Shown piece by piece: positions 37,227 through 56,201 of a DNA stretch of 64,000 nucleotides (the first letter of the stretch is position 1; every line of letters begins with the position of its first letter). The notes under the pieces were generated by a model. The model was given only the letters and a program-made list of their open reading frames with translations, was not told where the DNA came from and did not search any database. The position numbers and the translations under genes are program-made. This DNA comes from Thermococcus sp. SY098 (lineage in GTDB: Archaea > Methanobacteriota_B > Thermococci > Thermococcales > Thermococcaceae): positions 1,888,760-1,952,759 of the forward strand of contig NZ_CP141821.1 of NCBI RefSeq assembly GCF_035621495.1, written 5' to 3'.

Positions 37227-38348
37227 CTATGTCAGGAGGCTTTTTCCAACCATCTCTTTGGGCTTCTCAACTCCGAAGAAAGCTAAAACCGTTGGAGCTA
37301 TATCCATAAGACTTGCATTCTCAATATTGACATTCTCAAATCCCCATAAAATCAGTGGAACTTTCACAACTTGTTCATTCATTGAGCCGTGCATGCCCCT
37401 AACCCAGTAGCTTGTCCCCTTAATACCTTTACACTTCGCATGGCTGCAGAACCAGTATCCCTCTTTAGCTGAAACTATCAGTTCTCCACTGTTCGGTGTA
37501 TTTAAATGAGGCAAATCTTCCCTGAAAAAGACGTGCTTAACTCCTGGCGCTTTTAGTAAAACTTGATAAGCTTCTTCAGCTTGGTTTGGATTTTTCAGAT
37601 AGATGTGCACTCCTCCACCTGAAGAAACACGGAGTGTTTCAATGCCATGCTTCTTCAAATAAGTCTTGAGGTTCACCCAGGTGTGAACGTTCTCCTGCCC
37701 GTGGTCTGCAAAGATAATGAAAGCGTATTCATCTTTTAAACGCTTCCAAATCAGATTGAGCATCTCGTCTACGGTTTTTACAGCTTTTAGAGCCTCTTCG
37801 CTCTCAACACCGTAATCGTGTTGCATTCCATCAATTGAGCAGAAGTGAACCAGCAATAAATCTGGCTTGCATTCCTCATAAAGGTATAATGCTGACTGTG
37901 CAACCCATACGTCTTTCCTCCAATCCCTTCCATGCTGTCTGTAGAGCTTGTCATCACTGAAGAATGGTGGAAAAATCCTCACGTTGGTTCCGCTGAAGGG
38001 TGGCATTGTATAGCCGCTAACAGAAGCACTCCTTATTCCTTTTTCCCTGAGAATATCGACAACTGTTCTTGCCTTTATCACCTTATGGGGATTAAATGCA
38101 ACCTCATAATCGTAGAAGTTTATCTTCCTGTCAGCTAAGCGGTCATAGTAACCGTTCTCAACAACACCATGTTCCTTTGGATAAACACCAGTCATAATGG
38201 AGGTATGAACTAAGTCAGTGAGAGTGGGAAAGATGGAGTCAACTACCTCAAAGGAGCCCCCCTCAATCAAACTGCGGAGGAATGGCATGTGCTTAAGGTT
38301 GTAAACTCCATTTCCATCGAGACTTATTAAAGCAAGCTTTTCTCTCAT
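37227..38348 (-). CDS. Type I phosphodiesterase / nucleotide pyrophosphatase family protein
   Basis: A 373-residue alkaline-phosphatase-superfamily enzyme. The N-terminal metal aspartate is in LISLDGNGVYN, the nucleophile Thr in FPTLTDLVHTSIMTG, the second metal site in FCSIDGMQHDYG, then FADHGQENVHTW and a C-terminal His in YWVRGMHGSMN. All metal ligands appear present. No signal peptide is visible, so it is probably cytoplasmic. Substrate (nucleotide, phosphonate or sugar-phosphate diester) unknown. It converges with the rps7 operon across the terminator. Confidence 0.88.
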   Translation of the reverse strand: MREKLALISLDGNGVYNLKHMPFLRSLIEGGSFEVVDSIFPTLTDLVHTSIMTGVYPKEHGVVENGYYDRLADRKINFYDYEVAFNPHKVIKARTVVDILREKGIRSASVSGYTMPPFSGTNVRIFPPFFSDDKLYRQHGRDWRKDVWVAQSALYLYEECKPDLLLVHFCSIDGMQHDYGVESEEALKAVKTVDEMLNLIWKRLKDEYAFIIFADHGQENVHTWVNLKTYLKKHGIETLRVSSGGGVHIYLKNPNQAEEAYQVLLKAPGVKHVFFREDLPHLNTPNSGELIVSAKEGYWFCSHAKCKGIKGTSYWVRGMHGSMNEQVVKVPLILWGFENVNIENASLMDIAPTVLAFFGVEKPKEMVGKSLLT

Positions 38349-38353
38349 GAAAG

Positions 38354-38419
38354 CACCCCATCAGCCTGACGTGCAGTCATCACCACTCAGACCTAGCGAA
38401 CTTCATCATCTACGGGGTT
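38354..38419 (-). ncRNA. C/D-box guide sRNA candidate 1
   Basis: On the minus strand: C box ATGATGA (38409-38403), 12-base guide AGTTCGCTAGGT, D' box CTGA (38390-38387), three-base linker GTG, C' box GTGATGA (38383-38377), 12-base guide CTGCACGTCAGG, D box CTGA (38364-38361). ACCCC (38414-38418) pairs with GGGGT (38355-38359) to close the kink-turn. All four boxes fit consensus (RUGAUGA, CUGA). It would guide 2'-O-methylation of a base paired five positions before each D box; the targets have not been identified. Confidence 0.85.
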
Positions 38420-38436
38420 TCTTAGATACCATAAAA

Positions 38437-39669
38437 TTAAAAGTTTTTCAAAAATTCATCAAGTGTCATCTGTTTCCTCCACATCTTTAAGAGCCAGCTC
38501 TTCTCGAGATATTTCTCAAGAGGGTGCTCTAAGAGCTTTTTAACTTCGTTTAAAGCCTCCTGCAGTGTGTTGAATCTCCCAACTGGGTTTTTCAGGGCTT
38601 TCTTAACTCCTAATCTAATCTGCCATACTCCAACAGGAGCATAATATTTCGGGGTCACCTCTCTAAACACTAAAATCCTTGCTTGTCTTCTTCTATTCCT
38701 TAGAAATTCGAGGACACTTAAGCGGGCTGCATAGTAGGCGCCGGTTGTTTCCTCAGCATAACCTTTGATGCCTCTCCAATCTTCATAGTCATGAATCACT
38801 TGGGGCTCTTCGCTTCCAAACAGCGACCCCTTGAGCCACACCTCTAAGAGCTCAAATGCAAAACTCTCCGGCATCAAAAGCACAGCGTATCTATTCCCAA
38901 GGAATTCGTAAAAGTAAAGCTCGAACTCGTTTATTGTGTCATATTTCAGAATCTCTTTTCTCAAATGCTTTCCAATGGTGTCTTGAACTGCTGTGATGCT
39001 CCATCTCGTTGGCACAAGCTTTCTGCTAATCCCCAACAAACCGGCTGAAAGCAATCGTATAATGTAATATTCGTCAAATCCCCAAGTATAGAGCCTCATA
39101 ATGGCTTCTTCAGCCTTTAGTTCATCGCTCACAACATAGTCAGTCTTTCTTGGGATTCTTGGATTTTCTGTAAGTTCAAAATCTAAAAGCTCCGCTTTTG
39201 GCCCAACTGGTGGGGCAAACTCATTTGGCAGAACTTTTAAAATCGGCTTTCTCTTGAGAAGAATTTCGCTATCTACTGGTCTTATTGACATTGCTAACTC
39301 TTGAATTTCGCTCAGAATTCGCTGGCTTTTGCTCACTTTTACATCAGCCTTCGTTTCTCCCATAATCAAAAGCGAACGGTATTTGAGAATGTCATTTATT
39401 GTTTTGTTTTCCCATTTAAGGGGGTTGTCAAGATAAGATGTGTTTCCTTCAATTGGCGGCACAAGGGGTCCAATTCGGACCTTTGGATATCCAAACTCTC
39501 CAACGAATATGCTTGGCGGTGAAGAGCCAAAAATTTCCCTTCTGTTTACAATTCTCTCGACACTCTTAACTACCCTAAATCTCTCAAGAATTGGGCATGT
39601 GGGTCGCCCACAGAGTAATTTGCGACCCTTGCACAATGCACATAGCTTTGAGTTAAAGAGCTGCATCAT
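38437..39669 (-). CDS. nreA: DNA repair protein NreA
   Basis: Archaeal Nre-family protein of 410 residues. An N-terminal zinc-ribbon-like CALCKGRKLLCGRPTC is followed by the conserved FVGEFGYPKVRIGPLVPP. The C terminus ends KQMTLDEFLKNF, where Q-xx-L-xx-FL fits a PCNA-interacting (PIP) motif; NreA proteins are known to bind PCNA through such a motif and to take part in DNA-damage responses. TTATAAATA lies about 12 bases before GTG 39684, too close for that start, so ATG 39669 (or 39666) is preferred, giving a leaderless or nearly leaderless message. Confidence 0.9.
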   Translation of the reverse strand: MMQLFNSKLCALCKGRKLLCGRPTCPILERFRVVKSVERIVNRREIFGSSPPSIFVGEFGYPKVRIGPLVPPIEGNTSYLDNPLKWENKTINDILKYRSLLIMGETKADVKVSKSQRILSEIQELAMSIRPVDSEILLKRKPILKVLPNEFAPPVGPKAELLDFELTENPRIPRKTDYVVSDELKAEEAIMRLYTWGFDEYYIIRLLSAGLLGISRKLVPTRWSITAVQDTIGKHLRKEILKYDTINEFELYFYEFLGNRYAVLLMPESFAFELLEVWLKGSLFGSEEPQVIHDYEDWRGIKGYAEETTGAYYAARLSVLEFLRNRRRQARILVFREVTPKYYAPVGVWQIRLGVKKALKNPVGRFNTLQEALNEVKKLLEHPLEKYLEKSWLLKMWRKQMTLDEFLKNF

Positions 39670-39746
39670 TATTAGTTTGTGCACTGGTATTTATAATTGC
39701 CCCCTCCAAAAAGCTTAAATACCCACTGCTTATGAGTAATAACCGT

Positions 39747-56010: not shown

Positions 56011-56098
56011 TGGTGCGGGGGACGGGATTCGAACCCGCGCAGCCCTCCGGCAGCGGATCTTAAGTCCGCCCCCTTTGGCCAGGCTCGGGCACCCCCGC
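56011..56098 (-). tRNA. tRNA-Leu (TAA)
   Basis: Class II tRNA with long variable arm. Acceptor GCGGGGG/CCCCCGC, anticodon loop CTTAAGA, T-loop GGTTCGAATCC, encoded ACCA end. It lies 25 bases upstream of rpl40e on the same strand, so the two may share a transcript. Confidence 0.96.
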
Positions 56099-56137: not shown

Positions 56138-56201
56138 GTAAGCCTCGGAAGTGATGGCCCTCATCACCTTTCGGTGCCGGGCCTTCTCATCATCGGCAAT
56201 A
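56138..56201 (-). ncRNA. C/D-box guide sRNA candidate 2 (CCGA-type D boxes)
   Basis: On the minus strand: C box ATGATGA (56193-56187), guide GAAGGCCCGGCA (12), D' CCGA (56174-56171), linker AAG, C' GTGATGA (56167-56161), guide GGGCCATCACTT (12), D CCGA (56148-56145). GCC/GGC outside the boxes closes the stem. Both D boxes read CCGA in place of CUGA, yet all spacings equal those of the candidates at 38354 and 57841. It lies 40 bases upstream of tRNA-Leu on the same strand. Targets have not been identified. Confidence 0.78.

Follow-up and report, generated by a model that had tools for sequence, protein, structure and literature searches.

A predicted C/D-box double-guide sRNA in the gap after an archaeal NreA gene, with one guide exchanged between lineages

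What does the short gap between the gene for an NreA/Nre family protein and that for a type I phosphodiesterase/nucleotide pyrophosphatase contain? Both genes reside on the minus strand of the window (the whole stretch of DNA analysed, 64,000 nucleotides), the former upstream of the gap (38437..39684; PF04894 and PF04895) and the latter downstream (37227..38348; PF01663). The original prediction placed an unannotated guide RNA in a 90-base gap; the gap between the flanking open reading frames is present, with a length of 88 bases, and the sRNA gene within it was indeed passed over by protein-based annotation. We conclude with high confidence that this gene encodes an archaeal C/D-box double-guide sRNA, one guide of which has been exchanged in the window's genus (designated g1) and in a second genus (g6). 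The gene is of an ordinary, well-known kind, and it represents a well-supported and clear case of one-guide replacement.

Box architecture and predicted rRNA targets

A direct reading of the minus strand from 38409 to 38361 gives a perfect ATGATGA-12-CTGA-3-GTGATGA-12-CTGA plan, exactly as had been proposed. The C box ATGATGA (38403..38409), which is returned by the motif scan and is the same in five genomes, is followed by the D' guide AGTTCGCTAGGT (38391..38402), the D' box CTGA (38387..38390), a 3-nt loop (GTG), the C' box GTGATGA (38377..38383), the D guide CTGCACGTCAGG (38365..38376), and the D box CTGA (38361..38364). These elements agree with the archaeal C/D-box pattern, i.e., RTGATGA for C, CTGA for D', NTGATGA for C', CTGA for D, and spacers of approximately 12 nt. 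The gene is assigned to 38354..38419 (minus strand), an approximate extent that includes the terminal flanks and is based on the 64-nt circular RNA of the T. kodakarensis ortholog. When both strands of the 64-kb window were scanned, the strict C/D motif occurred only once, and it was absent from all 60 windows simulated with a second-order Markov model. The single-strand fold of the sRNA (z -1.9) is a duplex that disregards the k-turns and is hence uninformative. A second C/D RNA was observed in the window, a match to Rfam sR47 at 56143-56197 (minus strand; 53.1 bits, gathering cut-off 40), with a same-strand tRNA gene (56014-56098) at a distance of 45 nt.

The two guides were scanned against the genome's own 16S and 23S rRNA. 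For each guide one site stood out, in 23S rRNA in both cases; the original prediction had expected complements to the guides in stable RNA, and 10-bp complements are present for both. The D' guide is opposite GCCTAGCGAACC (23S 2484-2495) and the D guide opposite GCTGACGTGCAA (23S 862-873), in both cases with Watson-Crick pairing throughout guide nt 2-11, counted from the box, and no pair at nt 12; nt 1 forms a T:G wobble in the D' guide and is mismatched in the D guide. A 10-bp core of this type was found in 16S plus 23S rRNA for 137 of 50,000 random 12-mers from the window (0.27% each), and this chance rate implies that both guides would match about once in 100,000. In archaeal C/D RNAs, 8-10 bp give high methylation, and the modified site is opposite the fifth nucleotide upstream of the D or D' box (PMC7089733). 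Cores at guide nt 2-11 agree with this optimum and with the fifth-nucleotide rule (PMC7089733): both guides have 10 consecutive Watson-Crick pairs and a standard pair at nt 5, where the opposite base is an adenosine in each case, A2488 for the D' guide and A866 for the D guide. A2488 aligns to E. coli A2388; A866 aligns loosely, at about E. coli U746 in helix 35, a known methylation hotspot in archaea.

Judged by these complementarities, the sRNA very probably directs the methylation machinery to two sites in 23S rRNA. L7Ae would bind the C/D k-turn and the C'/D' k-loop, and Nop5 and fibrillarin would then join the L7Ae-bound sRNA; with the D' guide paired to 23S 2484-2495 and the D guide to 23S 862-873, fibrillarin would 2'-O-methylate A2488 and A866, the bases opposite the fifth guide nucleotides. 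Two precise 2'-O-methylation predictions, 23S A2488 and A866, are thereby added for the ribosome of a hyperthermophile. Alternatively, the guides could bind rRNA as a folding chaperone that ties domain II to domain V, methylating little or nothing. In favor of this, 1600 nt of 23S rRNA separate the two targets, and chaperone roles have been proposed for archaeal double guides (PMC4644070); however, both sites combine a full 10-bp core with a standard pair where methylation would fall, an arrangement that supports methylation, and we regard a chaperone role of this kind as improbable.

Gap, terminal stem, and overlap with the downstream leader

The box plan had been described as enclosed by a five-pair ACCCC/GGGGT stem. 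Both arms exist, the 5' arm ACCCC (38414..38418) and the 3' arm GGGGT (38355..38359) on the minus strand, separated from the boxes by 4-nt and 1-nt stretches, respectively; the stem is, however, not conserved in the genus. It occurs in the window genome only: four of the five g1 genomes carry CAGCTAAT/C between the D box and the G-run, their 5' flanks differ too, and the window genome lacks an eight-base segment that congeners have behind the D box. The stem is therefore unfit as evidence for the RNA. In most Thermococcus orthologs (designated g4), GGTG/CACC lies directly at the k-turn.

The end of the D box is 12 nt from the ATG of the phosphodiesterase gene (38348), and GGGGTG, which falls in the 3' arm of the stem, sits 6 nt before this ATG and is, by its position, the probable ribosome-binding site of the gene. 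Beyond occupying the gap, the sRNA thus overlaps with the phosphodiesterase gene's 5' leader, and its release may be mutually exclusive with translation of the mRNA. This overlap raises the question of whether the element acts, solely or additionally, in cis, as a k-turn in the phosphodiesterase mRNA's 5' leader, where L7Ae binding or excision would remove or mask the ribosome-binding site and lower expression. Besides the short distance from the D box to the ATG and the inclusion of GGGGTG in the stem, published data show that 5' overlaps reduce downstream expression (PMC7994747), and a role in cis is considered possible for some predicted snoRNAs (PMC4247193). A purely cis role, however, leaves unexplained two conserved guides with rRNA complements, the covariation of one guide with its target, and a free circular ortholog; moreover, the gene directly behind the sRNA is another one in T. 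kodakarensis and some other genomes, where the phosphodiesterase gene comes later. We consider the cis-acting reading to be rather unlikely, and favor that of a trans-acting double-guide sRNA.

Upstream of the sRNA gene is a TATA-like stretch, TTTTAATTTTAT (38431..38442, minus strand). In g1, the distance from the start of TTTTAAT to the C box is 31-33 nt; most Thermococcus orthologs have TTTATA or TATATA starting 29-33 nt before this box, and such a TATA hexamer is absent at 29-33 nt from the T. kodakarensis copy. The median distance from TATA to the start of transcription in T. kodakarensis is 23 bp (PMC4247193), according to which transcription would begin near 38418, the proposed 5' end. 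A promoter role for this stretch is put forward only tentatively, since it also encodes the C terminus of NreA.

Conservation of the locus and known relatives

Boxes and guides are invariant in all five g1 genomes that cover the locus, with a single genome differing at D guide nt 12. The boxed D guide pattern is present in g1, g2, g3 (Pyrococcus, defined by above-threshold sR7 matches), g4, and g6, and was not found in g5. In four genera of the family, the sRNA follows NreA in this gap, namely in g1, g6, g4 (all genomes that were checked), and g2 (one genome), and the phosphodiesterase gene is close downstream in those genomes, sometimes after one further gene. The expectation that relatives retaining the flanking genes would also keep the boxes is borne out by these comparisons, which extend to the locus and the D guide. 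In Pyrococcus, the sR7 RNA resides elsewhere in the genome and not at the NreA/phosphodiesterase gap.

The gene is absent or damaged in several relatives. No such RNA was found after the end of NreA in g5 or in the g2 genome G009; the gaps of G084, G087, and G009 are empty, and those of G084 and G009 are each only about 40 bases long. Among Thermococcus genomes, G021 (L250) has a damaged, internally deleted copy, G039 (L249) has a truncated copy, and G041 (L252) has none. The gene has therefore been gained and lost, and since some relatives lost or damaged it, the sRNA is dispensable. These losses could be taken to mean that the window copy is a functionless, decaying remnant. Its boxes and both guide cores are nonetheless invariant in g1 and both rRNA complements are intact, which speaks against decay, as the simulated windows do against chance resemblance; we judge either explanation highly improbable. 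Of the six g5 genomes examined (with the loci L241, from G084, and L243-L246 among them), five have a second Nre paralog elsewhere, which is approximately 40% identical.

By sequence and position, the window sRNA is an ortholog of T. kodakarensis Tko-sR29, an sRNA with an sR7-like D guide, and its D' guide has been exchanged. The two RNAs (PMC4247193, PMC9014305) share the gap after NreA, the box plan, the core of the D guide (the guides as a whole depart from each other at their two end positions), and the D target in 23S rRNA. In contrast, Tko-sR29 has the D' guide GCCTTCCATCCCG in place of AGTTCGCTAGGT and the D' box CCGA, and another gene separates it from the phosphodiesterase gene. In wild-type T. 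kodakarensis, sR29 was recovered as an abundant, circularized RNA (940146-940209) with 475,600 small-RNA reads and 36 circular reads, and no circular reads were obtained without the RNA ligase (PMC9014305). The copy in our T. kodakarensis genome (G030, L260) spans these published coordinates, and the flanking NreA gene was confirmed; the rRNA operon of G030 (2022701-2027700) matches in position that of T. kodakarensis NC_006624.1 as listed in PMC9014305. This transcript evidence belongs to the T. kodakarensis ortholog, not to the window species, in which the sRNA is presumably transcribed as well. Together with the rRNA complements and the conservation alongside the flanking genes, the published ortholog supports the proposal that the element is a canonical archaeal C/D guide RNA.

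Two Pyrococcus RNAs each resemble one half of the window sRNA. The sR7 family (RF01310) has the D guide TGCACATCAGG, which differs by one base that changed in step with the rRNA, and shares the D target in 23S rRNA; its D' guide, CCTCCATCC, is different, and NreA and phosphodiesterase genes do not adjoin it. The second, a C/D sRNA assigned to snoPyro_CD (RF00095), is about 90% identical in the D' half, from the C box to the C' box, carries the D' guide AGTTCGCTAGAA/AC, and shares the D' target in 23S rRNA, whereas its D guide (CCYAGGGTAT) is unrelated to that of the window and was not found in g1. The window sRNA scored 37.6 bits against snoPyro_CD (gathering cut-off 45; E 5.8e-7) and 29.5 bits against sR7 (gathering cut-off 37; E 2e-5), the latter matching in the D half and not in the D' half. 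Because both scores are below the cut-offs, a gathering-level Rfam scan of the whole window omits the sRNA; orthologs with swapped guides thus escape the Rfam thresholds.

A constant D guide and an exchanged D' guide

The D guide is kept in step with its target. Outside Pyrococcus, TGCACGTCAGG occurs with 23S GCTGACGTGCA, and in Pyrococcus TGCACATCAGG occurs with 23S GCTGATGTGCA, so that guide G faces rRNA C in the former and guide A faces rRNA U in the latter. The covarying position, guide nt 6, adjoins the methylation pair. Relatives accordingly conserve the RNA, and it can change in step with its target; this strongest instance of covariation is one event, a single substitution common to one genus.

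The D' guide, in contrast, differs by lineage at one locus, and each version is complementary to a different rRNA site. In g1 and g6 it has the TTCGCTAGG core (as in the window's guide) and is directed to 23S 2488. In Thermococcus (g4) it is of the TCCATCCC type, which is also the D' guide of Pyrococcus sR7, and is directed to 23S ~840-848, at a distance of 23 nt from the D target. The g2 genome G008 (L212, ~1450-1530) has, in the same gap between NreA and the phosphodiesterase gene, an sRNA with an unchanged D guide and the D' guide GCTTCACCGAA, which forms 11 consecutive pairs with G008's own 23S rRNA at 313-324. With the exchange in g1 and g6, one mark of the pair would have left domain II (~nt 843) for domain V. 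A search for the boxed TCCATCC guide did not find it in g1, where the older mark may thus have disappeared or depend on a divergent RNA; the boxed form of the pattern replaced a looser one, which was not informative.

At one syntenic locus, the guides of a C/D RNA have thus evolved separately, one kept and covarying and the other exchanged between lineages. Fluidity of guide modules was proposed earlier from duplicated genes within species (PMC4644070), and for this reason the present case is a clean example and adds no new principle.

Where might the new D' guide have come from? In Pyrococcus, the TTCGCTAG guide sits in another RNA, the one with the D guide CCYAGGGTAT. One possible but doubtful scenario is recombination, in which a Pyrococcus-type sRNA donated its C-to-C' module (C box, D' guide, D' box, and C' box) to the otherwise orthologous locus; the gene would thereby have been re-aimed in place with its second guide fixed. 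If this were the case, the further exchange in g2, to 23S 313, would make the gap a natural series of guide-module swaps. A search for the CCYAGGGT partner guide found none in g1, and no donor sRNA was identified by that route. The rRNA dictates most guide letters, and transfer of the module and convergence are consequently indistinguishable.

We also searched genome contigs with exact patterns for guides to the A2488 site. The matches listed were mostly chance bacterial ones, and full C/D architecture was used as the filter; among the matches listed, it was found in four of the six archaeal ones and in none of the bacterial ones with titles shown. At least one Thermococci contig and three Thermoproteota/Thermoproteales contigs carry full C/D RNAs that match the A2488 site with other partner guides; in the latter three (L134, L112, and L164), TTCGCTAG guides for the site are combined with unrelated partner guides. 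The A2488 site, matched by C/D RNAs with various partner guides, is therefore a repeatedly chosen target.

Two minor observations concern the D' guides of the other lineages. For that of Tko-sR29, the 16S-23S spacer offers a better match (11 Watson-Crick pairs plus one G:U; L261, record position 2024511) than does 23S rRNA near 843, and pre-rRNA might be what this guide acts on. Between Pyrococcus (L033-L039) and Thermococcus (g4), the sR7 D' guide is, by our own reading, shifted by one nucleotide; under the fifth-nucleotide rule, the predicted mark would accordingly change from 23S G842 to A843.
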